The notes beneath the pieces were generated by a model that was not told the origin of the DNA, did no database searches, and saw nothing but the letters and a program-made list of their open reading frames with translations. 18,254 bases of DNA from Bacteroidales bacterium (GTDB lineage Bacteria > Bacteroidota > Bacteroidia > Bacteroidales > JAAUTT01), in the NCBI GenBank assembly GCA_012031335.1, contig JAAUTT010000011.1:1-18254 (forward strand). The letters run 5' to 3'. Positions 2,604 through 18,170 of the stretch are shown here, piece after piece (position 1 is the first letter of the stretch; each line of letters starts with the position of its first letter). The position numbers and the translations under genes were made by a program.

Positions 2604-3474
2604 TTATTTCTTTGCATGCTGTTTCTGATAGGCTGAAGGACTGATTTTATACAATCGTTTAAACTGCCTGTTGAAGTTCGATAAATTGTGAAACCCACTC
2701 ATATAGCATACCTCAGAAATGTTATATTGTTCGTGACTCAGCAGTTTGCATGCATAACCTATTCGCACCTCATTCAGGAAATTCACAAAAGTCTTTCGGG
2801 TTCGCTGCTTAAAAAAGGTACAGAATGTATTGGGCGACATATGAGCCTTATCGGCAACCTGCTGAAGGGTTAAGTCGGACGTGAAATTTTTCATAATAAA
2901 ATCGCACACTTCCGTGATTTGCTCCGACCCCGAGGCCTTAAAATTCTGAATAAAACCCGGACTTGCCAGTTTTGTCTTTTGTTTTGTCTCGGCCAATATG
3001 TTGAGAATAGTCAGTAATTCGATAATTCTCTCGGCTCCACCCATCGCAAACATATCATGCATTTTGCGGGCAACAAGTTTTCCGGTTTTCCCCAGAATTG
3101 AAAAGCCCATCACCGATTCTTCCAGAAACCTGTTTATCCTTTCCATTTCCGGGAGGTTAAAAAAAGCTGTTTCCTAGAAAATCGCTGGTAAAATGAATCA
3201 CAATGGCTTCGGCAGTAAGATTTGAGTTCTCCTCGTAATAAATTTTACTGTTATGGTAAACATGTGGAAGATTTGGACCCAGAAATGCCAGATCTCCATC
3301 GGTAAAGGTGCTGATGTTGTCTCCTATTATTTTATCACCTGAGCTTTTAACTACCAGTACAAGTTCATATTCGGGGTGATAATGCCATGGGGTTGGGTAG
3401 TGCGGGTAAACATCCTTCTGCAAAACAAATGAGGATTTGGCGTCCTTGTTTAACCGTTCAATGATCAGTTTCAT
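2604..3474 (-). CDS. AraC-family transcriptional regulator, frameshifted
   Basis: DNA-binding activator or repressor of about 289 aa when corrected. The N-terminal part (1-105) is a cupin-type sensing domain with histidines at PWHYHPEYEL and PHVYH, the pattern of sugar-sensing AraC proteins. The C-terminal 100 residues are a double helix-turn-helix: LTLQQVADKAHMSPNTFCTFFK, split here as LTLQQVADKAHMS and PNTFCTFFK, then ISEVCYMSGFHNLSNFNRQF and the usual tail YKISPSAYQ. The two halves are in different frames because the T7 run complementary to about 3160-3166 has one base too many; removing it gives GNSFFNLPEMERI, as expected for the linker. It is divergent from the DUF1080/oxidoreductase operon, so control of that operon is a reasonable inference. 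The inducer is unknown. Confidence 0.92.
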
Positions 3475-3715: not shown

Positions 3716-4393
3716 ATGAAAAGGAATCCCTATTGTTTTTTTCTGCTGCTTTTAGGTTTCATCCAAACCGGAGTTACCTGGAGTCAAAACAGCAATAAGT
3801 CTGAATGGCGGCCTTTGTTTGGTAATAATTTAAGTGAAGCCGAATACGACAGAAATTGCTGGAAAATGGAGGGTGATGTTCTCACCGCTTCCGAAGACAA
3901 AGTAATATGGGCAAAAGGTATCTACGAAAATTTTGTACTGAACCTGGAATTTAAAACCGAAAACGGCACCAATAGCGGGGTAATCGTTTATTGCACCGAC
4001 CGTGAAAACTGGATACCCTATTCGGTTGAAATTCAGATTGCCGACGATTACAGCGATAAATGGGGAAAGGAAAGAAAAGATTATCAATGTGGGGCTATAT
4101 TCGGCCATTTACCAGCTGTTGAGCAAAAAGTGGTTAATAAACCCGGCGAGTGGAATAAACTGCAGATTACATGCAAAGGCCAGAACATTGACGTGGAACT
4201 GAACGGCAAACTGGTAACCCAAATGGATATGAGAAAGTGGACTTCCGGTAAAACAAACCCCGATGGTTCATCCATTCCCGAATGGTTACCCAATCCGCTT
4301 GCCCAATTACCCACCAAAGGAGCAGTTGGCCTCCAGGGAAAACATGCCGATGCCTCGGTGTGGTTCCGCAATATAATGGTAAGAGCGTTATAA
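3716..4393 (+). CDS. Secreted DUF1080 (3-keto-disaccharide hydrolase-like) protein
   Basis: A 225-aa single-domain protein with a Sec signal peptide (hydrophobic FFLLLLGFIQTG, likely cleaved near residue 24 after WSQ). The rest is the concanavalin-like DUF1080 fold (PF06439): WRPLFGNNLSE at the start, then NFVLNLEFKT, NSGVIVYC, the acidic EIQIADDY region, GEWNKLQITC, LNGKLV and the terminal VGLQGKHADASVWFRNI. In this family, members cleave 3-keto-glycosides made by a partner dehydrogenase; other members have no proven activity. The ATG at 3716 is chosen because it places the signal peptide correctly. It is the first gene of a probable three-gene operon with a second DUF1080 gene 31 bases downstream and a Gfo/Idh/MocA oxidoreductase after that, which fits the keto-glycoside role. 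Substrate unknown. Confidence 0.88.
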   Translation: MKRNPYCFFLLLLGFIQTGVTWSQNSNKSEWRPLFGNNLSEAEYDRNCWKMEGDVLTASEDKVIWAKGIYENFVLNLEFKTENGTNSGVIVYCTDRENWIPYSVEIQIADDYSDKWGKERKDYQCGAIFGHLPAVEQKVVNKPGEWNKLQITCKGQNIDVELNGKLVTQMDMRKWTSGKTNPDGSSIPEWLPNPLAQLPTKGAVGLQGKHADASVWFRNIMVRAL

Positions 4394-4424
4394 AATATAT
4401 CATCCAAAATTAAAACATACGAAT

Positions 4425-5189
4425 ATGAAAAAACAAAACAGCATCCTTGTTAATTGTCTTTGCCCTGATGTTAATTGCATCGTGCAAAACATCCCAAACA
4501 AAAGACCCTATGAAACTTTATAGCGAAATTGACCGCTCGGCCAATCCTAATATCCTTACCGATTCGGAAAAGGAAAAAGGATGGCAACTGCTTTTCGACG
4601 GAACAAATATTTCAGGATGGCATGGGTTTAACATGAAAGGCGTGCCCGAATACTGGGTTGTGGAAGATCAGGCCATTACCATGTTAACCGAAGGCGGCCA
4701 GGAAAGTCAGGATATCATTACCGATAAGGTGTACCGTAATTTTGTTTTCAGTGCAGAATTCAAACTTACCAAAGCTGCCAACAGCGGTATCATTTTTCAG
4801 GTGGCCGAAGACCCCAAATATAAGTTTCCTTACGAAACAGGTCCCGAATTTCAGGTGATCGACCACGAAAACTGGACCGATAAACTGGAGGACTGGCAAA
4901 TATGCGGAGCCAATTATGCCATGTATCCGCCCAAGGTTAAACCATATAAGGCGCTTGGCGAATGGAACCAGGTAATGCTCGTGGTGAACGAAAATCATGT
5001 GACTCAGATTTTAAACGGCGAAGTGGTGGTGACTTACGAAAAATATTCCGACGAATGGAAAAACTCCGTGCGAGCGGTAAATGGGCCGACTTCCCCGACT
5101 ATGGAAAATACGACGAAGGACACATTTCGCTTCAAAACCATGGAACCAAAGTATTCTACAGAAATTTAAAAATCAAGGAACTTAATTAA
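4425..5189 (+). CDS. DUF1080 lipoprotein, second paralogue, frameshifted
   Basis: Corrected length is about 254 aa. The start ATG at 4425 is out of frame with the body by one extra base in the A-rich stretch 4427-4440; removing it gives a lysine-rich start, a hydrophobic segment and the lipobox LIASC, so this copy is lipid-anchored. The body is DUF1080: WQLLFDGTNISGWHG, a W-V-V-E-D segment, NFVFSAEFKL, NSGIIFQV, GPEFQVIDHENW, GEWNQVMLVV and LNGEVVV. A lost G near 5080-5084 moves the frame again; afterwards it reads GKWADFPDYGK, then GHISLQNHG and KVFYRNLKIKELN, the standard family ending, with the stop at 5187-5189. The paralogue upstream is soluble and secreted, so the two may act at different sites or on different linkages. 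The oxidoreductase follows 23 bases later. Confidence 0.87.
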
Positions 5190-5212
5190 ATAACCGGTTT
5201 AATCTGAAGATA

Positions 5213-6694
5213 ATGAATAATTCACGACGCGATTTTTTAAGAAAAGCTACTGTAGCAACTGCCGGCTTTACAATCATCCCGAGTTTTACCGTGAGCGGAC
5301 TGGGTCATAAGGCTCCCAGCGATAAACTGAACATTGTTGGTATTGGTGTTGGTGGTAAAGGTCATCCGAACCTGGTGGGCATGAATTCCGAGAATATCAT
5401 CGGCCTTTGCGATGTTGACTGGAAATATGCTCAGAATTGTTTCAACGAATTTCCCAAAGCTAAAAGATACTACGACTGGCGCAAGATGTTTGATGAGCTA
5501 GGCAAATCGATTGATGGCGTAATGGTTGCCACAGCCGATCACACCCACGCTGCCGTTGCCGCTAATGCGCTGGCTATGGGCAAACATGTTTATTGTCAGA
5601 AACCTCTTACCCACTCGGTTTACGAATCGCGTTTACTTACAAAACTGGCTGCAAAGCACAAAGTGGCCACCCAAATGGGAAATCAGGGAAATTCAGGTGA
5701 TGGCGTACGCCAGGTTTGCGAATGGATATGGAATGGCGAAATAGGCGAAGTTAAAGAAGTGCATTCCTGGACTAACCGTCCTATCTGGCCCCAAGGTCTT
5801 CAGCGTCCGGCTAACTCCATGACTCCGCCGGATACAATGAATTGGGACTTGTTTATTGGTCCGGCGCCCATGCGTCCATTTCATGAAATCTATACACCCT
5901 GGAACTGGCGTGGATGGTGGGATTTTGGTACAGGAGCCTTTGGCGATATGGCCTGTCATATTCTCGATCCGGTTTACCAGGCATTAAAGTTAGGTTATCC
6001 ACAATCGGTAAGCGGAACTTCAACGCTTTTGAATACCGAAAGTGCTCCACAGGCCGAAAAAGTGAAATTTACATTCCCATCACGGGCAAAAGTGAACAGC
6101 GTAAATATGCCGGAAGTTGATGTGCATTGGTACGATGGAGGTCTGTTGCCCGACAGGAATGAGCTGTTGAATGGTATCGATCTGATGGCTGATAATATGG
6201 GCGGTTGTTTGTTCATTGGTTCAAAAGACACCCTGATTTGTGGCACCGGAGGATTCAACCCCCGTTTGCTTTCGGGTCGTGTTCCGAATGTTAAACCATA
6301 CCTGCGGAGAATTCCAGGTGCAATTGGTTATGTGGACGGACCGCATGAACAGGATTGGATCCGTGCCTGTAAGGAATCGCCCGAAAACAGGGTTGAAGGA
6401 ACTTCACACTTTGGTTATTCGGGACCGTTTAACGAAATGGTTTTACTGGGAGTGCTGGCAATACGCCTGCAAGGTTTAGGCAAGGTTCTGAAATGGGATG
6501 CCGAAAACATGAAATTCACCAATATTTCAGCCGGAGAAAAATTGAAGGTGGTAACTGTGGATGAGTTTAAGGTAGTCGACGGTCACCCTCATTTCAATAC
6601 CCAGCATGCCACCTTTGATGCGCTCGAAGCTGCAACAGGTTACATCAAGCATACCTACCGAGACGGATGGAATTTACCAGCAATGCCTGCCTGA
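5213..6694 (+). CDS. Tat-exported Gfo/Idh/MocA family oxidoreductase
   Basis: NAD(P)-dependent sugar dehydrogenase of 493 aa, intact. The N-terminus is a twin-arginine signal (SRRDFLRK plus a hydrophobic stretch to about residue 30), so it is probably folded with its cofactor and exported. The Rossmann motif is VGIGVGGKG (42-50) and the strand end is CDVD (66-69). The family motif normally written EKP is CQKPLTHS here, with K130. The catalytic region is GAFGDMACHILDP, with D245 and H249. The length exceeds the usual 330-400 aa because of extra C-terminal segments, as in other Tat-type members. In characterised cases such proteins oxidise a sugar hydroxyl, often C3, or act through a tightly bound NAD in glycoside cleavage. 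Its position behind two DUF1080 genes supports generation of a 3-keto-glycoside for them to cleave. The substrate cannot be read from sequence. Confidence 0.93.
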   Translation: MNNSRRDFLRKATVATAGFTIIPSFTVSGLGHKAPSDKLNIVGIGVGGKGHPNLVGMNSENIIGLCDVDWKYAQNCFNEFPKAKRYYDWRKMFDELGKSIDGVMVATADHTHAAVAANALAMGKHVYCQKPLTHSVYESRLLTKLAAKHKVATQMGNQGNSGDGVRQVCEWIWNGEIGEVKEVHSWTNRPIWPQGLQRPANSMTPPDTMNWDLFIGPAPMRPFHEIYTPWNWRGWWDFGTGAFGDMACHILDPVYQALKLGYPQSVSGTSTLLNTESAPQAEKVKFTFPSRAKVNSVNMPEVDVHWYDGGLLPDRNELLNGIDLMADNMGGCLFIGSKDTLICGTGGFNPRLLSGRVPNVKPYLRRIPGAIGYVDGPHEQDWIRACKESPENRVEGTSHFGYSGPFNEMVLLGVLAIRLQGLGKVLKWDAENMKFTNISAGEKLKVVTVDEFKVVDGHPHFNTQHATFDALEAATGYIKHTYRDGWNLPAMPA

Positions 6695-6768
6695 CAAGAT
6701 ATTCACAAATACGACCCCGGCTGGGCATAGTTGTCATCCTAAGGAATGTTATGTATTGATAATCAATA

Positions 6769-6790
6769 ACCCAGGCCTTTTGGCCTGGGT
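6769..6790 (+). terminator. Strong hairpin downstream of the oxidoreductase gene
   Basis: A perfect 9-bp stem, ACCCAGGCC (6769-6777) and GGCCTGGGT (6782-6790), with a TTTT loop. It lies 75 bases after the oxidoreductase stop and 203 before the next gene. There is no clean U-run after the stem on either strand, so a Rho-independent terminator is plausible but not textbook; it may instead protect the transcript 3' end. Nothing else was recognised in the 298-base gap 6695-6992. Confidence 0.5.
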
Positions 6791-6992
6791 GAAGATACAA
6801 GATTAGTTTTGAGGCGCACGATTTAAATATTAAAAGTCAAAACCGCTCATTGCGCCGCATCTATAATCTCAAAAATTCCGACGATGATAACATTACAGCT
6901 CTTTTTTCTTTCAATTCGCGTCGGAAGTCCCTAAGTGTTTTTCAAGCTCAGTGTTTTAATTACCTGCTATTAAAGCAATCAAATTAATTTTT

Positions 6993-8251
6993 ATGACTTC
7001 AAAAGAACGTTTTGATTTAACGATCAATCACAGGCAACCCGATCAGGTAGTGGTCGATTTTGGCTCGACTTCGGTAACGGGAATTCATGCTAAAACAGTT
7101 GAAAATCTCCGTAAACATTTTGGATTGACCAATAAACCGGTGCGGATTACCGATCCATACCAGATGCTTGGCGAAGTGGATCAGGAACTTATTGATATAA
7201 TAGGCGTTGATGTGATTGCTGCCAAAGGACGTAAAAACTCATTCGGCTTTTATAACCATGAGCCTTTGAAGGAATACCTTACACCCTGGGGTCAAACCGT
7301 ACTGGTTCCCGAAGCTTTTCGAACTATTAACGACGAAAACGGCGATGTGCTAATTTATCCCGAAGGTGACGTTTCGGCTTCACCCTCGGCCCGCATGCCT
7401 AAAAGCAGCTTCTTTTTCGATGCCATTATCCGGCAGCAACCTTTTAAGGAAGAGGAACTGGATCCAAAAGATAACCTCGAGGAATATGGTTTGGTATCGG
7501 ATGACGATCTTGCTTACTGGAGCGAAGCCACTCAAAAAGCACGTGCCACAGGAAAGGCAGTAGTAGCCGGTTTGGGAGGCACTGCCCTTGGCGATATTGC
7601 GCATATTCCGGGGATGAAGCTGAAGAAGCCCAAAGGGATCCGCGATATTACAGAGTGGTACATGAGCATCATCATGCGGCCGGATTTTGTGAAAACCATA
7701 TTTGACAGACAATCGGAAATTGCTGTGGAGAATCTCAAGCGCCTCCATCAGGTAATTGGGAATAATGTTGATGCGGTATTTATCTGCGGAACAGATTTCG
7801 GGACTCAGGAATCCACTTTTTGCGCTCCGGAGCAGTTCGATGATATATGGTTGCCTTACTACCAGAGAATAAATAACTGGATTCATACAAATACAAGCTG
7901 GAAGACATTCAAGCACTCATGTGGAGCCGTAGAATCGTTTCTGCCAAAATTTATTGAGGCTGGCTTCGATATTATCAATCCGGTTCAGGTGAATGCAAAA
8001 GGAATGGATCCGGTGCATCTGAAAAAGACATACGGAAAGGACCTTGTATTTTGGGGTGGTGGTATCGATACGCAAAAACATTGCCATATGCTTCTCCCGA
8101 AAAAATACGTGAAGAGGTGCTTCGCTTGTGCGACATATTTTCCAAAGACGGTGGTTTCGTATTCAATACAGTTCATAATGTACAGGCCAATGTGCCGGTA
8201 GAAAATGTTATGGCGATGCTGAATGCCTTAAAGGAATTTAACGGAAAATAG
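6993..8251 (+). CDS. Uroporphyrinogen decarboxylase/MtaA-like family protein, frameshifted
   Basis: Corrected length is 419 aa; the fold is the UroD-type TIM barrel (PF01208). Evidence is the N-terminal TSKERFDLTINHRQPDQ pattern, GVDVI, the segment GTDFGTQ (266-272), the HSCG motif (H308, C310) near the C-terminal end of the barrel, GFDIINPVQ and FWGGGIDTQ. In methyltransferase members (MtaA/MtbA) a His-X-Cys plus a later Cys bind zinc. Here H308-X-C310 is present, but the later position falls in FNTVHNVQ, suggesting H395 in place of Cys. One A is missing in the run at 8069-8073; after repair the frame continues TLPYASPEK to the stop at 8251. This is not a heme-biosynthesis enzyme: it is one of the divergent UroD relatives often found beside sugar oxidoreductases. 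The actual reaction is unknown, and no corrinoid protein is nearby. Confidence 0.85.
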
Positions 8252-8280
8252 CAGTCATTACCTGATCTATTCATAAACAT

Positions 8281-8460
8281 GGAGCACCTCAACCTATACT
8301 TAGGCGAAGCCGGTCTCACCGAAGGTAATCACTCTCCTAAAAGAGAGGGACTTTGAAGAGCAGCGAATCAAGAGTTTTGCGTTCTTTCTCCCCTCGCCTT
8401 CAGGAGAACTTAGCGCCAGCGCTCTCACGACCGAAGGGAGTAGCGGTTGGGGGTGAGGTC
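8281..8460. repeat. Intergenic repeat-like region with short palindromes
   Basis: In the 264-base gap between the UroD-like and SDR genes, short inverted repeats cluster: CTCTC/GAGAG (8332-8336 and 8343-8347), AGCGC-CA-GCGCT (8412-8423), and a CTCCCCTCGCCTTCAGGAGA / TTGGGGGTGAGGTC pair of segments (8389-8408 and 8447-8460). This last pattern resembles a non-coding repeat I have seen scattered between genes in many Bacteroidota, here apparently split by other sequence. No coding potential was found. The identification as a dispersed repeat is from memory of similar sequences, not from a comparison. Confidence 0.4.
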
Positions 8461-8515
8461 TTAAAAAATTCATGAATTATGCAGATTAATAACTAATTTT
8501 AATCTCTTCGCACCC

Positions 8516-9307
8516 ATGTCTGAAAAAATGCTCTCGGGCAAAAATCTGGTTGTCATCGGTGGTACAACTGGTCTTGGACTTTCGGCCAGTAAAGCCTTTG
8601 TGGAAAATGGGGCCAATGTTGTTGTCGCCGGCAGAAATGAGGATAGTGTTTCGGAAGCCAAAAAGCTTCTGGGAAGCAGGTCCGAGGGTATTGCAGGAGA
8701 CGCCGTGCTGCCCGAAACCGCCATGCGGGCCATCGAAGTTTGTGTTGAAACATTCGGAAGCTTCCATGGTCTCTATCATGTAGCGGGTGGCAGCGGACGA
8801 AAAATGGGCGATGGTCCTCTGCATGAGCTTACCCTGGAAGGATGGAATAAAACACTTGAGTTGAACCTTACTTCTCTCATGTTATCCAACCAGGCAGCGG
8901 TTCAATATTTTTTAAAGCATCATCAGGAAGGTTATATTCTTAATATGGGTTCGGTACTCGGATATTCACCCTCTCCCCAATATTTCAGTACCCATGCCTA
9001 TGCAGCATCCAAATCAGCCATCATCGGGTTTTCAAAATCGATTGCCGCCTATTATGCCAAAAATAATATCCGTGTAAACGTAATTGCTCCTGCCCTGGTG
9101 GAAACTCCCATGGCAAAAAGAGCTGCAGAAGATGATCATATTCTCGCTTTCATCAAAACCAAGCAACCCCTGGATGGTGGACGAATCGGATATCCTTCGG
9201 ATCTGGACGGACTCGCTGTATATTTTATGAGCGATATGGCCAGGTTTACAACCGGTCAGGTTATCGCTGTAGATGGAGGGTGGACGGTTTCCGAAGGTCA
9301 GCTTTAA
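8516..9307 (+). CDS. Short-chain dehydrogenase/reductase (SDR)
   Basis: Classical SDR of 263 aa, intact and cytoplasmic, interconverting an alcohol and a ketone with NAD(P). The cofactor motif is GGTTGLG (15-21), the N of the NxxS region is N117, and the catalytic set is S146 (NMGSVLGYS), Y162 and K166 (YAASK). The end of the fold shows GQVIAVDGGW, the usual family signature. The sequence AGGSGRK replaces the usual NNAG after the fourth strand. It stands alone between two repeat-bearing gaps, but it is on the same strand as the catabolic genes and probably serves the same pathway, for example reducing or oxidising a keto-sugar or a sugar acid. The ATG at 8516 is the only plausible start close to the first beta strand. 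Confidence 0.94.
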   Translation: MSEKMLSGKNLVVIGGTTGLGLSASKAFVENGANVVVAGRNEDSVSEAKKLLGSRSEGIAGDAVLPETAMRAIEVCVETFGSFHGLYHVAGGSGRKMGDGPLHELTLEGWNKTLELNLTSLMLSNQAAVQYFLKHHQEGYILNMGSVLGYSPSPQYFSTHAYAASKSAIIGFSKSIAAYYAKNNIRVNVIAPALVETPMAKRAAEDDHILAFIKTKQPLDGGRIGYPSDLDGLAVYFMSDMARFTTGQVIAVDGGWTVSEGQL

Positions 9308-9309
9308 AA

Positions 9310-9446
9310 GTCGACGGTCGACGGTCCACAGCCAATTCAAATTTTAAAGATAGCGATCGGCTGTTGGCCGTCGTCTGAGGACTGAGGACTGTTGACCATT
9401 TGCATTGGTTGTTAACCGTCGTCTGTCGTCTGAGGACCGTGGACAA
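9310..9446. repeat. Cluster of short direct repeats (GTCGACGG / TGAGGAC / GTCGTCTG units)
   Basis: Between SDR and ROK genes. GTCGACGG occurs twice in tandem at 9310-9325. TGAGGAC occurs in tandem at 9376-9389 and again at 9431. GTCGTCTGAGGAC is exact at 9370-9382 and 9425-9437. A longer 19-base unit ending CCGTCGTCTG repeats at 9359-9377 and 9407-9425 with three differences. The units vary too much in length and spacing for a CRISPR array. Such GTC-rich minisatellite-like stretches occur between genes in Bacteroidota; function is unknown. It leaves only about 40 bases for the ROK operon leader. Confidence 0.7.
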
Positions 9447-9487
9447 GAATATTCATTTAAATCAGTAATTCATTAAAAATAACACAT

Positions 9488-10380
9488 ATGTCAAACATTT
9501 CGATAGGTATTGATTTGGGTGGTACCCGCATTAAAGCTGTAGCCGTGGATGAGTCGGGCAACATTCTGCACCAGCATTACCAGGCGACCAATGATGGCGA
9601 TGATGCGGTCTGGAAAAGCGCCGTTGCCACTGCAGTGATGGAAACCCAGCATAAAATTGACAAAACCGGCGTTTTCGTGGGTATATCTGCTCCGGGCCTG
9701 CCCAACGCAACCAATTCGGCCATTGCCTTTATGCCCGGCAGACTGCAGGGACTTGAGAATTTTATATGGACCAGATTTTTAAAACCACCACTTTTGTATT
9801 GAACGATGCCATTTCGGCCATGATGGCCGAAGCAAGGTTTGGTGCCGCCAAAAATAAAAAAAATGTGGTGATGCTTACCCTGGGAACCGGTGTTGGCGGA
9901 GCAATTCTGATTGAAGGTAAACCTTATCAGGGAGCGTTTAACAAAGCCGGGCATATCGGCCACATGGTTATCGACAGCGATGGGGAGGCCGATGTAATTG
10001 GAATGCCCGGGAGTCTGGAAGATGCAATCGGAAATTGCAGTATTCAAAAAAGGACTATGGGGAAATTCACCTCCACCCATCAACTGCTGGAAGCCTTCAG
10101 AAACGGCGATGCCTTTGCGTCCGAAGTGTGGCTTACTTCTGTAAAAAAGCTGGCCATTGGCATGGCTACCTTAACCAATATTCTGTCGCCCGAAATGATC
10201 ATTCTCGGTGGCGGTATTACCGAAGCGGGTAAAGATCTGTTTGATCCTTTGGAACAATACATGAGTCAATATGAGTGGCGCACCGGTGGTAATAAAACTG
10301 AAATTGTAAAAGCTCAGTATGGCGATTTATCGGGTGCTGTAGGAGCAGCATGTTTTGCAAGAGAAGCGGGTAAAAATTAA
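9488..10380 (+). CDS. ROK-family sugar kinase-like protein, frameshifted, altered zinc motif
   Basis: Corrected length is 297 aa, with the actin-like ATPase fold of ROK kinases. The phosphate-1 motif is GIDLGGTRIKA (D9, G11, T13), the catalytic aspartate is D107 in VLNDA, the phosphate-2 motif is TLGTGVGGAI, and the late GGGI lies near the adenosine site. The sugar/zinc region is unusual: the normal GExGH is G155-H-I-G-H159, so the glutamate that contacts the sugar is His. The CxCGxxGCxE motif keeps its glycines and glutamate (G172, G175, E178) but has D169, I171 and S176 in place of all three cysteines. A missing G near 9767-9770 breaks the frame (IWDQIFK after repair). It starts a tight operon with a SIS isomerase 9 bases downstream, so phosphorylation of an intermediate followed by isomerisation is likely. 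Substrate unknown. Confidence 0.88.
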
Positions 10381-10389
10381 AAGAGCGAA

Positions 10390-11181
10390 ATGAACATTAC
10401 AGAAGCTTATATTCAAAAGTCGGCTGAGATACTTGAAACAGTTAGGTCGCAGCAGAATCAGATAAGAGAGGCAGCGAGGCTGTTTGCAGAAACAATACTT
10501 GCCGGTCGCATGGTGCATATTTTCGGAAGCGGGCATAGTCGCATCCTGGTAGAGGAAATGTGGCCCAGGTATGGTTCCTTTCCTGGTTTTAACCCCATTG
10601 TTGAACTTTCGCTTACATTTCATAATCTGGTGGTTGGGGCCAATGGTCAACGTCAGGCTATGTTCCTTGAAAATGTGAGCGGACTGGCTGAAAGGATCCT
10701 GCGCAATTTCGACCTGAAAGAAATAGATACGGCACTTCTTATTTCTTCGAGCGGTTGCAATGTTGTCCCCATCGAAATAGCCGAAGGGTTTCAGCGGCGC
10801 AATATCAAAGTAGTCTCGATTATTTCCAGGCTGCATTCCGAAATGTCGGTAAGCAAACGCAGCGACGGTAAAAAGCTAAGCGACTTTTCCGATCTGGTGC
10901 TCGATACGGGAGCTCCCGTTGGCGATGCCATGGTGTATGTTCCTGGTCTGGATACACCTGTTGCCCCCGGATCAACGTTGGGAGGAACCTTACTTGTCAA
11001 TTGCATAAAAGCCGAACTGGCTGCATTGCTGACTGCCGCAGGTCAGCCTCCCAAAGTTTTAAGCGGGGCAGTTGTCGTAGGCGAGGAAAGGGCTGTATCT
11101 CTATTCGAAAGCGCTTACGATGAGCATGCGCACCGACTGGCAAAACTGTTCGAAAATGTTGGTAATTCCAATAATAAGTAA
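10390..11181 (+). CDS. SIS-domain sugar isomerase-like protein
   Basis: Intact 263-aa cytoplasmic protein of the SIS_2/UPF0309 type. The nucleotide-free sugar-phosphate binding loop is FGSGHSR (45-51), followed by EEMWPRYG, the family's EElfyRaGG position. The second phosphate loop is ISSSGCN (118-124), then NIKVVSI. Members of SIS families bind phosphorylated sugars and act as isomerases, deaminases, etherases or regulators. It has no DNA-binding domain, so an enzyme is more likely than a regulator. It sits between the ROK kinase (9 bases) and the FAD oxidoreductase (3 bases), so co-translation is expected, and the kinase product is its likely substrate. Confidence 0.88.
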   Translation: MNITEAYIQKSAEILETVRSQQNQIREAARLFAETILAGRMVHIFGSGHSRILVEEMWPRYGSFPGFNPIVELSLTFHNLVVGANGQRQAMFLENVSGLAERILRNFDLKEIDTALLISSSGCNVVPIEIAEGFQRRNIKVVSIISRLHSEMSVSKRSDGKKLSDFSDLVLDTGAPVGDAMVYVPGLDTPVAPGSTLGGTLLVNCIKAELAALLTAAGQPPKVLSGAVVVGEERAVSLFESAYDEHAHRLAKLFENVGNSNNK

Positions 11182-11184
11182 GCT

Positions 11185-12570
11185 ATGTCTGATTACTTCA
11201 ATGTTCATAAAATTCCGCTGCTGGCCGAAACTGATATCCTGGTTGTGGGAGCCGGTTCGGCTGGTTGCGTGGCTGCTCTTGCTGCTGCGGAGCAAAAAAA
11301 ATATTCCGTAATGCTTGTGGAGCGTTATGGTTTCCCTGGCGGAACGTCAACACAGATGCTCGATACCTTCTACGGATTTTTTACTCCCGGACTGAGTCCC
11401 AGGAAAATTGTGGGGGGATTACCTGATCGTGTCGTGAACGAACTGGATAAGACCGGCGATATTTTTCTTCGGCCCAATACCTATGGAGCAGGCACCGGGG
11501 TGAATTACAATCCGGAACGGCTGAAGTATATTTGGGATATCATGATTACCCGCGCCGGAATTCAGTACCTATTGCACACCTCGCTGGTAGATGTTTTTAA
11601 TGAGGAACACGAGCGGATAACCTGCATCTTCTGGCATAAATCGGGCTTTTATAAGGTAAGGGCCCGCAGGGTGATCGATGCAAGCGGCGATGCCGATTTC
11701 TGTGCACTGTCGGGCTGCCGGTTTGAAGTGGCCGGAGAAAATGAACCGGCACAAAGTATGACAACAACTTTCAGGATGTGTAATGTCGATCTTGAAAAGT
11801 TTGAAAAAGCAGGTGGCAACAAAATGATGAAGGAACGCATGGCAAATGCCTTCGACTCCCGAACATATCTGCTTCCCCGCAAGGAAGGGTCCGCGCATGA
11901 GATGTGCCAGCCGGGTTGCATTTCAGCAGTGGCTGTAAAGGTTGCCGATTTGAGCGCCCTCAGAATCGAGGAACTTACAAAAGCAGAAGTTGAAGGGAGA
12001 AAACAGGCGTTTATTTACGAAGATTTTTTCCGGGACCAGGTTCCGGGCTATGAAGATTCAAAAATCATCGGGCTGTCGCACCAGATAGGGGTGCGCGAAA
12101 CACGCCGGGTGTATGGCGAGCACAGGCTTACCAAGGAGGAATGCCTCGCCGGAGAAATTCCTTCATCGTCAGTTTTGCTTTGTGGTGCACCCATTGAAGA
12201 TCACCGGAAGGGTAAAAACGGACAGGACGAAACGTACTGGGAGTATATTCCGGGAGCAGGCATCTATGGCGTGCCTTACGGGGCACTGGTTCCGGAAGGT
12301 AGCAATAATACCTGGGTGGTAGGACGTTGTTTTTCGGCTACACACGATGCGCATGCTTCCTGTCGTTCCATGGCGCAGACCATGAGCATGGGACAGGCTG
12401 CCGGTCTTGCTGCGGTTCAATCACTACAAAGAGATTTTGATGCCCGAAATGTAGACGTTTCCTTACTGAGAAACGAGCTGACTGCCATTGGGCAGATACT
12501 TGAAGTTCCCGGTTTAATTGCAGACACCAGTCGCACGGGATGGAAAAACAACCTTACTCCGAAACTTTAA
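11185..12570 (+). CDS. FAD-dependent oxidoreductase (FAD_oxidored family)
   Basis: Intact 461-aa flavoprotein. The dinucleotide-binding motif is VVGAGSAG (20-27), with E47 at the end of the second strand (LVERYGFPGGTST) for the ribose of FAD. The second FAD region is VIDASGDADFCALSG. The C-terminal part has the family hallmarks ETRRVYGEHRLT, then VPYGALVP, VVGRCFSATHDAHASC and MGQAAGLAA. No signal peptide. PF12831 proteins are common in carbohydrate-utilisation loci, but few have known substrates; oxidation of an alcohol, amine or CH-CH bond of a sugar derivative is possible. It is 3 bases after the SIS gene and 10 before the phosphotriesterase-family gene. Confidence 0.92.
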   Translation: MSDYFNVHKIPLLAETDILVVGAGSAGCVAALAAAEQKKYSVMLVERYGFPGGTSTQMLDTFYGFFTPGLSPRKIVGGLPDRVVNELDKTGDIFLRPNTYGAGTGVNYNPERLKYIWDIMITRAGIQYLLHTSLVDVFNEEHERITCIFWHKSGFYKVRARRVIDASGDADFCALSGCRFEVAGENEPAQSMTTTFRMCNVDLEKFEKAGGNKMMKERMANAFDSRTYLLPRKEGSAHEMCQPGCISAVAVKVADLSALRIEELTKAEVEGRKQAFIYEDFFRDQVPGYEDSKIIGLSHQIGVRETRRVYGEHRLTKEECLAGEIPSSSVLLCGAPIEDHRKGKNGQDETYWEYIPGAGIYGVPYGALVPEGSNNTWVVGRCFSATHDAHASCRSMAQTMSMGQAAGLAAVQSLQRDFDARNVDVSLLRNELTAIGQILEVPGLIADTSRTGWKNNLTPKL

Positions 12571-12580
12571 AAAATACAAT

Positions 12581-13533
12581 ATGCCCTTTGTAAGAACCGT
12601 ATTGGAAGATATACCATCCGAAGCGATGGGCTTAACATACTCCCACGAACACATTGTGATAGAAGAAGGCTTCACTACAACTGGCCATCCTGAATTTATC
12701 CTCAACGACACGGACAAAATCAGCAGCGAGCTGTCGGAGCTATACCAGGCCGGCGGAAGAACCATGGTCGACACCATGCCTGCCGCTTGTGGTAGAAGTA
12801 TTCTCAACCTTGTTGAAGTCTCCCAAAGGTCAAAAATAAAATATCATTAGCACCTACAGGCTTGCATCTCGAAATATACTATCCGCCCAACCATTGGCGG
12901 TACCATCTGTCGGTTGATGCGTTAACGAAATTATTCATTGAAGACATCACCCTTGGAATTGATGCACTCGATTATAACAGTCCGGTTATTCAACGGACTA
13001 CGAACAAAGCCGGTATGATAAAACTGGCAACTGGTGATGATATGATTACCGGTCATCAGCAAAAGGTTTTCGAAGCAGCAGTGAATGCCCATCGCGAAAC
13101 CGGAGCACCCATACTTACCCATACCAATGGAGGTAAACTGGCAATGGAACAGGTTGAGTTATTGGCAAAATATGGTGCGGATCTTAATCATGTTGTTCTG
13201 TCGCATATCGACAAGCACAAGGACCTGGCTTTTCACAACCACCTGATGCAAACCGGTGTATATGTTGAATATGACAGCCATTTCCGCTGGAAAACATCAG
13301 ATGAAAACTGGACATATACCCTCCTCGAAAAAATGTTACCTGACTTTAGCGATCGCATTGTTATCGGCATGGATATGGCAAAACACACCTATTGGAAATC
13401 TTATGGAGGTAAGCCGGGTTTAATTTACTTAGTTACTGATTTTAAAAAAGAATTGGTTAAGCGAGGATTGGACGGTTATTACAATGAGTTGTTTTTTTTG
13501 AATCCTCAGAGGCTTTATGCATTTATGGAATAA
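12581..13533 (+). CDS. Phosphotriesterase-family metal hydrolase, frameshifted
   Basis: Amidohydrolase-type TIM barrel of about 317 aa when corrected. Every metal ligand of the family is visible: H22 and H24 (YSHEHI), the carboxylated lysine K148 (AGMIKLA), H181 (ILTHTNGG), H209 (VLSHIDK) and D265 (GMDMAKH). One A is missing near 12836-12840; after repair the strand reads KIKISLAPTGLHLE. The start at 12581 follows an A-rich leader and gives the usual N-terminus just before HEH. Family members hydrolyse lactones, phosphotriesters or phosphorylated-sugar lactones. In a locus with several dehydrogenases, opening of a sugar lactone is the best guess. A gap of 175 bases to the next gene holds nothing recognised. 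Confidence 0.9.
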
Positions 13534-13708
13534 ATGCTTTAATCAAAACAATTATTTCTCTACATTCGGTATATTTTACAACTCTATAAACCATGCTTAT
13601 TCCTGGAATGTATCCCGCCTGTTTTCAGGGAGAAAAGCTATTTGGATGAACAACCTTAAATTGCGACCTTCAAAAAAGAGTTTTAAATTTACATTAAACA
13701 AAAATGCT

Positions 13709-14893
13709 ATGACTAATCGAAGAAATTTTTTGCGTTCGATGGCTGCGGCAAGCAGTTTAGCCCTTATTCCATCTGCGTTGGCTGGCAGCGTGGTTTCGAT
13801 AAGCGATCAGGACTCCACGCTGTTGAAACTGCATTCCCATGTACCACAGCCTGTAATTATAAAATCCATTGAACTCCTGTATTTCGACAATGAATATATC
13901 CTCAGGCTTACTTCCAACGAAGGAATAACAGGTTGTACCCTTTGCAATCAAAGAATGCCGGAACTTGTCTCATTGCTTCAGAAAGCTGTAATACCGCACT
14001 TTCTAGGTAAGGATGCCCGGGATATTGAAAGTCTGCTTGAATATGTATATGTTGTAAATTCAAATTATAAATACACAGGATTACCCTTCTGGAATTGCGT
14101 AGGCCACCTGGAAATTGCCATTTTCGACCTTTTGGGTAAAGTAATTCAAAAGCCAGTACATTATTTTTTAGGAAAGCCGGTATGTGACAATATTGAAGTT
14201 TATATTTCGAGTACTACCCGCGAAACAACACCACAGCAGGAATCAGCCAACTTTGCAAAGCGACTTGCCGAAACTGGTGCAAAAGCTGTTAAGTTTAAAG
14301 TTGGCGGGCGAATGAGCAAAAATGCCGATGCGATGCCCGGCCGCAGCGATACCATTGTCCCTTTGATGCGCAAGACGCTGGGAGAATCCATTACCTTTTA
14401 TGTGGATGCAAATGGTTCGTACGACACAGCGAATGGGCTGCGTATGGCTCAATATCTCGAGGAACAGAAGGTCGCTATTTTTGAAGAACCTGTTCCATTT
14501 GACGAATACGAGAATACCCTGTTAATTACACAAGCTGTTAAAACTTTAAAGATTGCCGGAGGTGAGCAGGATACCAGCCTTTACCGGTTCGGATGGCTTG
14601 CTGCCAACAGGGCCCTGGATGTTTTGCAGCCCGACTTGTACTACAACGGAGGTTTTATCCGATGTTTAAAGGTTGCCCAAATGGCCGCAAATGCAGGAAT
14701 TAAATTTTCACCACACAGTCCCAAGACCAACCCCCTCGCCGCCCCTATGCTTCATTTGATGACAGTGGTACAAAATACCGGAGGATACCAGGAATGGCAT
14801 ATCAATCATCCCAATCATAAGAACTGGTATGCTCCACATTACGAAATCCGGGACGGCAAAATACCTGTACCTGATCAACCTGGCTGGGACTAA
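13709..14893 (+). CDS. Tat-exported enolase-superfamily (mandelate racemase-like) enzyme
   Basis: Intact 394-aa protein. The start at 13709 is chosen because it begins a twin-arginine signal (NRRNFLRS, hydrophobic to SALAG, about residue 26); an in-frame ATG at 13517 would bury that signal behind 64 low-quality residues. A capping domain follows to about residue 150, then the barrel with K195-F-K197, metal ligands D233 (YVDANGS), E259/E260 (FEEP) and E286 (GGEQD), D304 (LDVLQPD), H336 (SPHSP) and E362 (QEW). This is the catalytic set of mandelate-racemase subgroup members, which abstract a proton alpha to a carboxylate, giving racemisation or sugar-acid dehydration. Export of such an enzyme is unusual. 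It follows the phosphotriesterase-family gene, whose product could be the sugar acid. Confidence 0.9.
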   Translation: MTNRRNFLRSMAAASSLALIPSALAGSVVSISDQDSTLLKLHSHVPQPVIIKSIELLYFDNEYILRLTSNEGITGCTLCNQRMPELVSLLQKAVIPHFLGKDARDIESLLEYVYVVNSNYKYTGLPFWNCVGHLEIAIFDLLGKVIQKPVHYFLGKPVCDNIEVYISSTTRETTPQQESANFAKRLAETGAKAVKFKVGGRMSKNADAMPGRSDTIVPLMRKTLGESITFYVDANGSYDTANGLRMAQYLEEQKVAIFEEPVPFDEYENTLLITQAVKTLKIAGGEQDTSLYRFGWLAANRALDVLQPDLYYNGGFIRCLKVAQMAANAGIKFSPHSPKTNPLAAPMLHLMTVVQNTGGYQEWHINHPNHKNWYAPHYEIRDGKIPVPDQPGWD

Positions 14894-15014
14894 CTTTCGA
14901 TAATTCAATATGGGAGAAGGCAGACCAGGTTAAATGTTAACAAATGTACAGCCATTTCTAAAAAACATAATTCTTCAGATATTGCTATTAAGAGTAGTTT
15001 ATCCGGCAAAAATA

Positions 15015-15107
15015 AAAGAGGCTGCCGCCCGATCTTTGGGTTGTTAGGTATGGAACTGTCATAGTCCTTTCCTAAACAGCCAATCGGTTAATTACGACAG
15101 CCTCTTT
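15015..15107 (-). terminator. 93-nt nested imperfect palindrome between convergent genes
   Basis: The outer arms AAAGAGGCTG (15015-15024) and CAGCCTCTTT (15098-15107) are exact reverse complements. Inside are CCGAT/ATCGG (15029-15033 and 15083-15087), GGTTG/CAGCC (15039-15043 and 15077-15081, one G-T), TTAGG/CCTAA (15044-15048 and 15071-15075), and a short tip. On the minus strand the stem is followed by TTTTATTTTTG, so it can end the TIM-barrel transcript, whose stop lies 18 bases away. The enolase-type gene converges on it from the other side. The length and nesting are unlike a simple terminator; a palindromic mobile-type repeat is an alternative. GGTTGTTAGGT (15039-15049) recurs at 15140-15150 inside the TIM-barrel gene's 3' end. 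Confidence 0.6.
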
Positions 15108-15124
15108 AAAAAAATCCTGAAACC

Positions 15125-16034
15125 CTATACCAAAATTTTGGTTGTTAGGTTATTAATACTTGTTTCCAATGCTTCAAAGGGCTTTCCGTTACCTTGGTTA
15201 TCATCTTCAACAAACATATATTTCATACCTGCCAGTTCTTTGGAGGCCAAAATAGTTTTAAAATCAATCACACCAGCACCAACAGAGCAAACATCGTCCT
15301 TATTTACATCGAAGAAAGGATCCTGTTTGGTACTCATATCTTTCATGTGGAACAGCTGGAAGCGGCCCGGATATTTTTTAAACATTTCAACAGGATTCTG
15401 CCCGGCTTTACTTACCCAGAAAAGGTCGATTTCCATGGTGATAAGGTCCGGATCCATTTCGCGCATAAAAATATCATAATAAGGAACTACACCATTTATA
15501 TTCATAAATTCGAAGTTATGATTATGATATCCAAACTGGATGCCTGCACTTTTCATTATTTTCCAACCTCATTCCAGTCGCCCACCATTTTTTTGTACGA
15601 GTTGATATTCCGGTCTTCCTCGTTAACCCACGGCTGAACACAGTATTTAACACCAAGAGCGGCATGGTCGTCGGCCATTTTCTTAGCATTGTCAATGGTG
15701 ATACCTGCGGCTTCCACCTGGGTATGACTGCTAATAATATTCATCCCAAGATCAGATACAATTTTCTTAAACTCTTTTGGAGCATATTTATAAAACTTCC
15801 CATTTGAATAATCAGCAAGTTCAATGTTCTTATAGCCCAGATCGGAAATTTTTTAAGTGTGCCGAGTGCGTCGGCTGTCATAGCATCCCGAATGGTGTAT
15901 AACTGCAAACCAACACCAAATTTTTTCCTGGAGCTTGCATCTGGTTTCAGCGTAAAAGAACCAAGTGCAGTTAAACCTATAGCTCCTGCTGCCGAAATTT
16001 TCAAGAAATTTCTTCTACTTTGCGTATTCATCAT
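15125..16034 (-). CDS. Tat-exported sugar isomerase/epimerase-like TIM barrel, frameshifted
   Basis: Xylose-isomerase-like TIM-barrel protein (PF01261), about 303 aa when corrected. The N-terminus is a twin-arginine signal (SRRNFLKISAAG, hydrophobic to about residue 27). Barrel landmarks in order are GVGLQLYTIRD, NIELADYS, SSHTQVEAAG, CVQPWVNE, FGYHNHNFEF, TMEIDLFW, FHMKDM and MFVEDDNQG, the last four supplying the metal-binding His/Asp/Glu set. Two single-base losses break it on the minus strand: an A run near 15850-15856 (KKISDLGYK after repair) and an A run near 15560-15563 (VGKIMKSAG). It has its own promoter region in the long gap upstream and converges on the plus-strand catabolic genes. 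Family members isomerise, epimerise or dehydrate free or keto-sugars; with its export it could act on the product of the DUF1080/oxidoreductase step. Confidence 0.9.
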
Positions 16035-17241: not shown

Positions 17242-17270
17242 TAAGGATAAGGAATTTATAATTATCCTTA
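17242..17270. terminator. AT-rich hairpin at the convergent gene ends
   Basis: TAAGGATAA (17242-17250) and TTATCCTTA (17262-17270) form an exact 9-bp stem around an 11-base loop. The right arm overlaps the stop codon of the minus-strand MBL gene, and the structure lies 81 bases after the plus-strand membrane-protein gene. It could stop transcription from both sides, but neither strand has a clean U-run behind it. Confidence 0.35.
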
Positions 17271-18170
17271 TTCCCACTTCCCGTAATAAATGCAATAAAT
17301 AATCATATTATCGGGAAAGAACCGTGTGCCGGTTTGCAGATCGGCCAAAGGTTCCATGGCAACAATTTGTTCGTATGTTTTGCCTTTATCTTTCAGCCTT
17401 ACAACTTTTTCGACTACTTTTAGCAAATTATTCCGGTATTCGACCAGGCCAACCAGATTTGTAACCGAACCTTGCCCAGGTATTATAACAGTTTGAAAGT
17501 CGCACAACTTGATAATCTGGTCGAGGGCCTGTATCACACCCCGAAATGAACCTTCGTAGGGAGAAAAGCCCGAACGAAATACGAAAAGATCGCCTGTGCA
17601 GATAACATTAGAGTTTCGGAAGTAAATTACTATATCGCCCATCGTATGTGCTTCAGGAGTATGATAAAGTGTAACTGTCTCCCCATTGAACTGAATTTCC
17701 ATTGAATCGGTAAAACACATATCAGGTAACTGGTCGGAAGGACGAGGTGCAACAGGTGGTATATTAAAAACTTCTGGTGCCTCCCAAACCGACATCATTT
17801 CATTCCGGGCATTCAAATGAGCAATGGTAACAGTTCTTCCTTCTCTTTTGTAATATTTGCCGGCTCCGATCTGATCGAAATGAGAGTGCGAATAAACAAT
17901 ATAACGGACTGGTAAGTTAAAAGCCGTTAGCAGTGTTGTGTCTGTGCGAATTGAGTCGGCTTCGGGAGCCGGATCAATTACCATCAAACCATCCTCCCCT
18001 GTAAAAAAGGTAACCAAGCTGCCATTTACCATATGAACAAAGAAACCCGGAGCAACTTTCCGAACTAAATGAGGATCTATTTGCAACTCCTGCGAAAACA
18101 AAGCGTTTCCTGAGAAAGAATACATCAGGAAAAAGCAACCGTAAAGCACGGGTCGAATGCAGCTCTTCAT
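17268..18170 (-). CDS. Exported metallo-beta-lactamase-fold protein with altered metal site
   Basis: Intact 300-aa protein with a Sec signal peptide (hydrophobic to about residue 26, cleavage near LFSQ). The fold is the MBL hydrolase fold: GEDGLMVIDPAPEAD, the metal loop YSHSHFDQIGAG, the TPEAHTMGDIVIYF strand, CTGDLFV, and the IPGQGS loop. Ligands H95, H97, D99, H175 and D194 are present. The fourth residue of HxHxDH is Q100, and the PGHG histidine is Q233, so two of the second-metal ligands are glutamine. This suggests one-metal binding, another metal, or loss of hydrolase activity. An extended C-terminal helix region with ERMV-like charged residues (about 245-275) follows. The 84 bases upstream to the window end hold a small hairpin (GTGGA/TCCAC, 18195-18206) and nothing else recognised. 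Substrate unknown. Confidence 0.9.
   Translation of the reverse strand: MKSCIRPVLYGCFFLMYSFSGNALFSQELQIDPHLVRKVAPGFFVHMVNGSLVTFFTGEDGLMVIDPAPEADSIRTDTTLLTAFNLPVRYIVYSHSHFDQIGAGKYYKREGRTVTIAHLNARNEMMSVWEAPEVFNIPPVAPRPSDQLPDMCFTDSMEIQFNGETVTLYHTPEAHTMGDIVIYFRNSNVICTGDLFVFRSGFSPYEGSFRGVIQALDQIIKLCDFQTVIIPGQGSVTNLVGLVEYRNNLLKVVEKVVRLKDKGKTYEQIVAMEPLADLQTGTRFFPDNMIIYCIYYGKWE

Follow-up and report, generated by a model that had tools for sequence, protein, structure and literature searches.

Proteins of the DUF1080 family act on 3-ketotrehalose and, as proposed, on 3′-ketolactose (PMC9007349, available text), and the demethylation of sugars found in the literature is the oxygen-dependent action of a P450 on 6-O-methyl-galactose (PMC10033563, available text). 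The corrinoid methyltransferases known in the UroD superfamily are MtaA, a methyltransferase 2 (MT2), and, as methyltransferases 1 (MT1), the O-demethylases MtvB, OdmB, VdmB and MtoB, together with CdmB. For methoxy-aromatics and for chloromethane, donor-side enzymes of this superfamily have been demonstrated, of which some use zinc and others do not (PMC13222342, in the part available). We analyzed a stretch of 18,254 nucleotides (nt) from a Bacteroidales bacterium (contig JAAUTT010000011.1, assembly GCA_012031335.1; hereafter referred to as the window), in which genes for two DUF1080 proteins and a Gfo/Idh dehydrogenase are followed by those for a UroD relative, a short-chain dehydrogenase/reductase (SDR), a ROK-family kinase, a SIS-domain protein, a flavin adenine dinucleotide (FAD)-dependent oxidoreductase, a phosphotriesterase-family hydrolase (PTE) and an enolase-type enzyme. 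A prediction made from the sequence alone (hereafter referred to as the original prediction) had described an uncharacterized 3-keto-type sugar locus, with the UroD relative last in its list; this protein carries the most informative link. The prediction stands for the most part as an observation and partly as an interpretation. The locus is real, its core combination recurs and its dehydrogenase/DUF1080 part is already known; the novelty lies in the link between the locus and a distinct UroD family travelling with corrinoid methyl transfer. We tentatively read it as a catabolic operon for glycosides carrying O-methylated sugars or another methyl ether, acting through a corrinoid-dependent UroD.

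The nearest relative found for this locus is contig JAIFLU010000093.1 of a Bacteroidetes metagenome-assembled genome (MAG), designated L001 (other loci and genomes are likewise given L and G numbers). The order and orientation AraC-DUF1080a-DUF1080b-Gfo-UroD-SDR-ROK-SIS-FAD-PTE-enolase are common to both, and the encoded proteins are 90–99% identical, except for a short stretch of DUF1080b (86%). From DUF1080a through the enolase, all genes lie on the + strand of the window. In L001, the frames of UroD, ROK, PTE and the AraC-type regulator are intact; in the window they are split, with single-base indels separating the two sequences within UroD, ROK, PTE, DUF1080b and the regulator. Because the differences are of this kind and the L001 frames are intact, the breaks seem likelier to reflect assembly error than pseudogenes.

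The UroD gene (6993..8251, + strand, end approximate; PF01208) is broken by a single-base difference at 8074, and its broken frame matched the URO-D Pfam model at 24.0 bits, against a cut-off of 23.9. The orthologue in L001 is intact, with 419 amino acids (aa). Fold comparison related the protein to UroD and MtaA; MtoB and CdmB were not among the best 50 matches, which excludes nothing. The MtaA and CmuA methyltransferases have H-x-C...C zinc ligands. The H-x-C metal-site motif was kept in an alignment of 64 proteins of the window type (His in 64/64, Cys in 63/64), the third ligand position of which was His in 64/64, whereas the MtaA-type proteins of these loci have Cys at +80/+82 in four of five distinct cases. 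Scores against TIGR01463, NF040654 and NF004889 were 36.5, 38.6 and 46.3 bits, below the cut-offs of 235.4, 400 and 244, respectively. Identity with HemE was considered and rejected, as the intact L001 protein gave no match to TIGR01464 at E 1e-5. The family is large (at least 8000 relatives at E 1e-20), and the UroD of the locus is probably a corrinoid-dependent methyltransferase, on either the donor or the acceptor side.

A scan of a species-genome collection with UroD yielded 50 loci, many of them cut by contig ends, of which the closest 24 are L001–L024 and 26 are more distant. Within 8 kb of UroD, ROK was present in 22 of the closest 24 and Gfo/Idh in 14 (one just 22% identical), with SDR and SIS in five each, the FAD oxidoreductase and PTE in four each and a corrinoid protein in two; the 26 more distant loci had ROK in two cases (24–30% identity) and Gfo/Idh in one (26%). 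Together with a further 15 and then five later neighborhoods (70 in all), corrinoid methyl-transfer genes were found beside UroD in seven. The Tannerella MAGs L021 and L022 have MtaB, B12-binding and methionine-synthase-activation-type proteins beside DUF1080b, Gfo/Idh, UroD and ROK (recognized by Pfam in L021 and by similarity in L022, where the contig end truncates DUF1080b). In L025 and L026 (Cytophagales, Cyclobacteriaceae MAGs), UroD occurs with a B12-binding protein, a homocysteine S-methyltransferase and an activation protein, to which L026 adds three further UroD-type proteins and a CobW-like protein. The run in L159 is UroD26c-CobW-activation-UroD-Gfo-ROK. Two same-strand runs join UroD and corrinoid methyl-transfer genes to DUF1080 and an orthologous Gfo/Idh: DUF1080b-Gfo-UroD-GH120-like-unknown-corrinoid protein-MtaA-type-UroD26c in L192, and DUF1080b-Gfo-UroD-Gfo-MtaA-type-homocysteine methyltransferase-activation protein in L195. 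Both had been chosen because Gfo and UroD are linked in them, irrespective of corrinoid genes. Also adjoining UroD and the corrinoid protein is a PhyH-type dioxygenase (L025:12452-13291), unusual company for a pathway that would run without oxygen.

Sugar-related genes were found among the other neighbors of UroD. Sugar transporters of the major facilitator superfamily (MFS; PF00083) were found in L004 and L027, with relatives elsewhere (10/65 loci in all), ABC ATPases in L030, L034, L046 and L048, and glycoside hydrolase (GH) and related genes in L012 (GH97), L192 (GH120-type), L019 (apiosidase-like) and L014 (sulfatase). An MFS transporter, absent from the window, is a likely uptake partner. 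In L165 and L188, DUF1080, Gfo/Idh or UroD stands beside an MFS sugar transporter 74–87% identical to that of L004.

At the genome level, a search with the stand-alone corrinoid protein of L021 found this protein in all 16 UroD-positive Bacteroidota genomes searched (best E ≤ 4.3e-82) and in 14/19 UroD-positive genomes of other phyla (E ≤ 2.5e-42); 15 of the 50 genomes of the UroD scan lay outside these searches. Across 247 genomes of the order of G006, UroD was present in 13 and the corrinoid protein in 26, comprising 11/13 UroD-positive and 15/234 UroD-negative genomes (odds ratio 80, p 1.3e-10, uncorrected for genome relatedness and with genome incompleteness left aside). Among 291 genomes of the order of G013, one had UroD and the same one had the corrinoid protein. 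Both G006 and G013 had been picked as order centers for their UroD. Corrinoid genes lying apart from UroD stood beside MtaB, or with UroD26c, homocysteine methyltransferase and CobW-like genes, and had RACo or activation genes nearby in several cases; MT2 and activation genes were seen in part of the loci read. In G001, the sister genome of the window, the corrinoid protein is encoded beside an MtaA-type protein, and no MtaB match was found. MtaB was present in 14 and absent from 14 of 28 UroD-positive genomes (those of L192 and L195 being outside the 28), and a dependence of UroD on MtaB was rejected on these grounds. Many PF01208 matches in the 28 genomes are divergent UroD-type proteins of 340–430 aa, and the counts reflect a wider expansion of the superfamily in Bacteroidota. 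Clusters under AraC-type regulation that encode a corrinoid protein and MtaB were also seen in Bacteroidota (L058, L060-L062, L069, L143, L145, L148 and L151), with a RACo-type activator in L143, L145 and L148. Judging from their gene content, these clusters would represent methanol-type methyl transfer, which to our knowledge has not been known for Bacteroidota.

The 3-keto part of the locus begins with DUF1080a (3716..4393, + strand), which has a Sec-type start and is 95% identical in L001, and DUF1080b (4447..5169, + strand), which has a lipoprotein-type start with an LIASC box, a single-base difference at 5059 and the solved relatives 8tda and 8rr2. Both belong to the 3-keto-disaccharide hydrolase family (PF06439; 117.3 and 130.5 bits, respectively, cut-off 26.8). 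The Gfo/Idh protein (5213..6694, + strand; Tat start, for twin-arginine translocation) scored 870.3 bits over residues 4–492 against the glycoside 3-dehydrogenase model NF058561 (BT_2158_fam), above the curated equivalog cut-off of 750, and is near PDB entries 8tdf and 8tdh. These matches identify the three genes as what appears to be the known 3-keto-glycoside module, an already named family. A 2024 Nature paper reportedly describes a broad-specificity 3-keto pathway. The original prediction was right about a 3-keto-type glycoside locus and about export-type starts for these three proteins; "uncharacterized" does not fit the DUF1080/Gfo pair. BT_2158-family proteins were present in 123/140 genomes of the family of G002 (E ≤ 1e-180), and UroD of this type in 61/140 (E ≤ 1e-100). 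Among the matches listed, UroD lay within 5 kb of 16 of the 25 Gfo/Idh copies with 74% or more identity to the L006 protein (two partial), and of none of the first 60 copies at 59–66% identity, suggesting that the UroD-linked Gfo/Idh forms a separate dehydrogenase lineage. Five of the nine unlinked copies at 74% or more (L179, L180, L186, L187 and L189) had no UroD over 10–18 kb; L188 and L190 lie on contigs of less than 5 kb, and two others were left out of the reading.

Downstream from UroD, on the + strand, lie SDR (8516..9307; PF13561, 167.7 bits), ROK (9488..10380; PF00480, broken by a single-base difference at 9781, an intact 297-aa open reading frame (ORF) in L001), SIS (10390..11181; NF002805, 252.2 bits, over the subfamily cut-off of 135; PDB relatives 3cvj and 9eol), the FAD oxidoreductase (11185..12570; PF12831, 305.3 bits) and PTE (about 12581..13533; PF02126, frame broken, an intact 316-aa ORF in L001). 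The nine ROK proteins compared have a GxPGSLED motif region in common and lack the Cys cluster that is a feature of many ROK kinases. The PDB sequence matches of the FAD oxidoreductase covered only FAD-motif stretches, and its structure model was poor (predicted local distance difference test score, pLDDT, 34.4). PTE had the phospho-furanose lactonase model NF045706 as its nearest curated match, at 174.7 bits, below the equivalog cut-off of 630. The gap between SDR and ROK (window 9308-9487) measures 180 nt, versus 26 nt in L001, and contains a 41-nt direct repeat pair (9356-9396 and 9404-9444, 78% alike); it holds a small insertion or repeat element.

This block was also searched for independently of UroD, from the FAD oxidoreductase, in the 140 genomes of the family of G002. 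The oxidoreductase occurred in eight, including the query's own genome. The order SDR-ROK-SIS-FAD was present in 7/8 neighborhoods (L183 ends within the FAD oxidoreductase), and PTE came next in 7/8 (L182 ends before it). A BT_2158-type Gfo/Idh (56–81% identity) adjoined the block in five (L006, L179, L180, L181 and L183), and UroD was present in four (L006, L182, partial, L184 and L185). None of the 247 genomes of the order of G006 had the oxidoreductase at E 1e-80, in a search made without a positive control. SDR-ROK-SIS-FAD-PTE forms a syntenic block that is rare and frequently adjoins a BT_2158-type dehydrogenase. Its recurrence, together with the gene order shared with L001, speaks against a chance grouping. 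In L179 and L180, the block follows Gfo/Idh without UroD; block and dehydrogenase are thus associated with each other, with UroD as an optional partner of both. It is fairly likely that the block acts on what the 3-keto enzymes produce.

From the gene families, synteny, co-occurrence, fold and motif observed, we infer an activity, a substrate, a direction of methyl transfer and an order of steps for the five-gene block. The exported BT_2158-type Gfo/Idh would oxidize the glycoside at C3, and the DUF1080 proteins would cleave the 3-keto glycoside outside the cytoplasm. Cytoplasmic UroD, with its H-x-C...H metal site, would then move a methyl group from the released substrate to the stand-alone corrinoid protein (its gene is at another place in the sister genome); from this protein, an MtaA-type or homocysteine S-methyltransferase would pass the group into one-carbon (C1) metabolism. 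The freed sugar would be converted through phosphorylated, possibly lactone intermediates, with oxidation or reduction by SDR and the FAD oxidoreductase, phosphorylation by ROK, phosphosugar conversion by SIS and lactone hydrolysis by PTE.

UroD looks donor-side by elimination, in L025 and L195 only, because these loci encode acceptor-side proteins (homocysteine methyltransferase in both, and an MtaA-type protein as well in L195) without MtaB in the stretch, and MtaB is absent from half of the 28 genomes. The neighboring ROK, sugar transporter, ABC ATPase, GH97, GH120-type, apiosidase-like and sulfatase genes suggest a sugar as its substrate. That UroD acts on the donor side, on a sugar methyl ether, is a possibility that we put forward with caution. 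More tentatively still, the locus may represent an undescribed family of anaerobic corrinoid-dependent sugar O-demethylases (UroD fold, H-x-C...H site) that work together with the cleavage of 3-keto glycosides and with a ROK kinase dedicated to the pathway.

UroD could instead be an acceptor-side, MtaA-like MT2, with the 3-keto enzymes freeing methanol from methyl glycosides, MtaB methylating the corrinoid protein and UroD passing the methyl group on. This is rather unlikely: MtaB, corrinoid and activation proteins do lie beside UroD in L021 and L022, MtaB is present in 14/28 UroD-positive genomes and the best NCBIfam models of UroD are methylcobamide:coenzyme M methyltransferases, but MtaB is missing from as many genomes, G001 among them, separate MtaA-type proteins are encoded in L026, L139, L192 and L195, and in G001 beside the corrinoid protein, and UroD has His at the third ligand position and scores far below the MtaA cut-offs. 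We consider it improbable that UroD acts on the 3-keto sugar as a metal-dependent isomerase, lyase or decarboxylase, with corrinoid genes following lineage or lifestyle. Same-strand corrinoid runs in seven genomes from at least two orders and the co-occurrence of 11/13 versus 15/234 argue against such an enzyme, for which it may be said that fold alone is no proof of function, that a metal ligand is altered and that 63/70 UroD neighborhoods, many of them cut short, lack corrinoid genes. An O-demethylase of the MtvB/OdmB/VdmB kind, acting on methoxy-aromatic aglycones freed from plant phenolic glycosides, is distinctly improbable. UroD-superfamily O-demethylases do act on methoxy-aromatics (PMC13222342, in the part available), and growth on salicin, a phenolic glucoside, has been linked to a LacABC/DUF1080 system (PMC9007349, available text); in the close loci, UroD is nevertheless most steadily accompanied by a ROK kinase (22/24), sugar transporter, GH97, GH120 and sulfatase genes lie beside it, and no aromatic-degradation genes were recognized among the part of the neighbors scanned.

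Several observations weigh against a corrinoid-dependent sugar demethylation. Besides the 63 neighborhoods mentioned above, neither the window nor 21 kb of L001 contains a corrinoid gene, and in L021 and L022 it is MtaB, a donor-side enzyme, that adjoins UroD. A full stand-alone corrinoid protein is absent from five of the 19 non-Bacteroidota genomes (G263, G264, G268, G271 and G275) and from two of the 13 UroD-positive Bacteroidales (G152 and G244), and the co-occurrence statistics take no account of relatedness. The UroD sequence profile gave no match to the PDB at E 0.01. Another PF01208 protein may be the donor enzyme, because the 28 UroD-positive genomes have two to 20 PF01208 matches each, and the five-gene block may be independent of the methyl step, because it occurs without UroD in L179, L180 and L181.

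The original prediction had placed three Tat-exported enzymes, Gfo/Idh, an enolase and a xylose-isomerase-like TIM barrel, in a single pathway acting outside the cytoplasm before uptake. The twin-arginine starts are there on direct reading (SRRDFLRK in Gfo/Idh, NRRNFLRS in the enolase and SRRNFLKI in the TIM barrel), including those it had given for the last two, and both DUF1080 proteins are exported. However, the enolase-superfamily (MR_MLE) enzyme (about 13709..14893, + strand; PF13378, 149.1 bits; Tat start) was seen at this position in the window and L001 alone, with no NCBIfam equivalog over its cut-off; a core role is unsupported, and it is doubtful even as an operon member. The TIM barrel (16034-15125, - strand; 24.2 bits, under the Pfam cut-off of 31.1; three broken frames) was rejected as part of the unit, being on the opposite strand and not found in the 3.5 kb of L001 beyond the enolase. 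It matched just L021 and L022, at 30–32% identity; other PF01261 TIM barrels lie beside Gfo/Idh or UroD in L013, L015, L017, L022, L180 and L181. That the three Tat enzymes form one unit is therefore unsupported. Conversion outside the cytoplasm fits the exported Gfo/Idh and DUF1080 proteins; for the whole pathway it is unsupported, because UroD, SDR, ROK, SIS, the FAD oxidoreductase and PTE have starts without export signals and the kinase needs ATP. A single extracytoplasmic pathway is accordingly highly improbable. All the gene families named in the original prediction gave profile matches, with URO-D barely over and the TIM barrel under its Pfam cut-off, and the co-occurrence that it had proposed to check was found in other genomes for DUF1080/Gfo and for SDR-ROK-SIS-FAD-PTE, so that the absence of co-occurrence it had named as a refutation does not hold for these parts.

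Upstream from the locus, the AraC-type regulator (2604..3474, - strand; cupin-like part 3157-3474, helix-turn-helix part 2604-3146; frame broken) matched HTH_18 at 79.6 bits, with cupin and AraC_binding slightly below cut-off, and is a single intact 305-aa ORF in L001, 98–99% identical. The Bacteroides BT2157/BT2158-type locus presumably also has an AraC-type regulator. Promoter and terminator scans of the window gave counts close to those for shuffled sequence, and a repeat scan found short pairs only. At least six window genes are split (141-2446, 2604-3474, 6993-8251, 9488-10380, 12581-13533 and 15125-16034); the first of these regions (+ strand), upstream of the locus, contains chemotaxis-receptor-like and response-regulator/histidine-kinase-like frames that are apparently split too. 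A metallo-beta-lactamase-fold protein with an export-type start is encoded at 17268-18170 (- strand), with no tie to the locus seen.

Plant and algal polysaccharides commonly contain methyl-etherified sugars. Bacteroidota with such loci may demethylate sugars in the absence of oxygen; if so, Bacteroidota and members of other phyla would remove the methyl ethers of plant and algal sugars anaerobically and feed the methyl groups into C1 metabolism. The use of methylated sugars by anaerobes would be accounted for by a corrinoid route coupled to 3-keto-glycoside cleavage, which would also provide C1 metabolism in sediments and guts with a further source of methyl groups. A testable gene set is present in a named isolate, Draconibacterium aestuarii (L013). 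Among the literature matches listed, no title or opening of an abstract dealt with corrinoid-dependent sugar demethylation or with this UroD and DUF1080 together.

The locus resembles the Bacteroides BT2157/BT2158-type pathway in its Gfo/Idh, which exceeds the BT_2158_fam cut-off, and in its two DUF1080 proteins, both over that of PF06439. It differs in that no BT_2159-type second dehydrogenase was seen in the window and in that UroD and SDR-ROK-SIS-FAD-PTE follow, genes unmentioned in the available text of PMC9007349. Phospho-furanose lactonases provide the nearest curated model for PTE, which scores far below its cut-off. The NagS/UPF0309 SIS proteins include a solved relative of the window SIS protein, and SCO4393, a relative of this protein, is an N-acetylglucosamine 6-phosphate dehydratase, an activity reported as limited to Streptomycetaceae (PMC12680351, available text). 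From the MtaA/CmuA type, the window-type UroD differs by a His in place of the third Cys and by scores far below the cut-offs, and the known methyltransferases of the superfamily have about 340 aa, versus 419 aa for this UroD, which is linked to sugar genes; the sequence comparison covered the MtaA/CmuA models and the MtaA-type proteins of these loci. The type 1 mlp clusters are similar in combining several UroD-type proteins with corrinoid and activation proteins, as in L026 and L150, but are tied to methyl-sulfur and selenium compounds, and 3-keto and ROK genes are unnamed in the available text (PMC10418091). The third ligand of their UroD-type proteins also differs from that of the window-type UroD.

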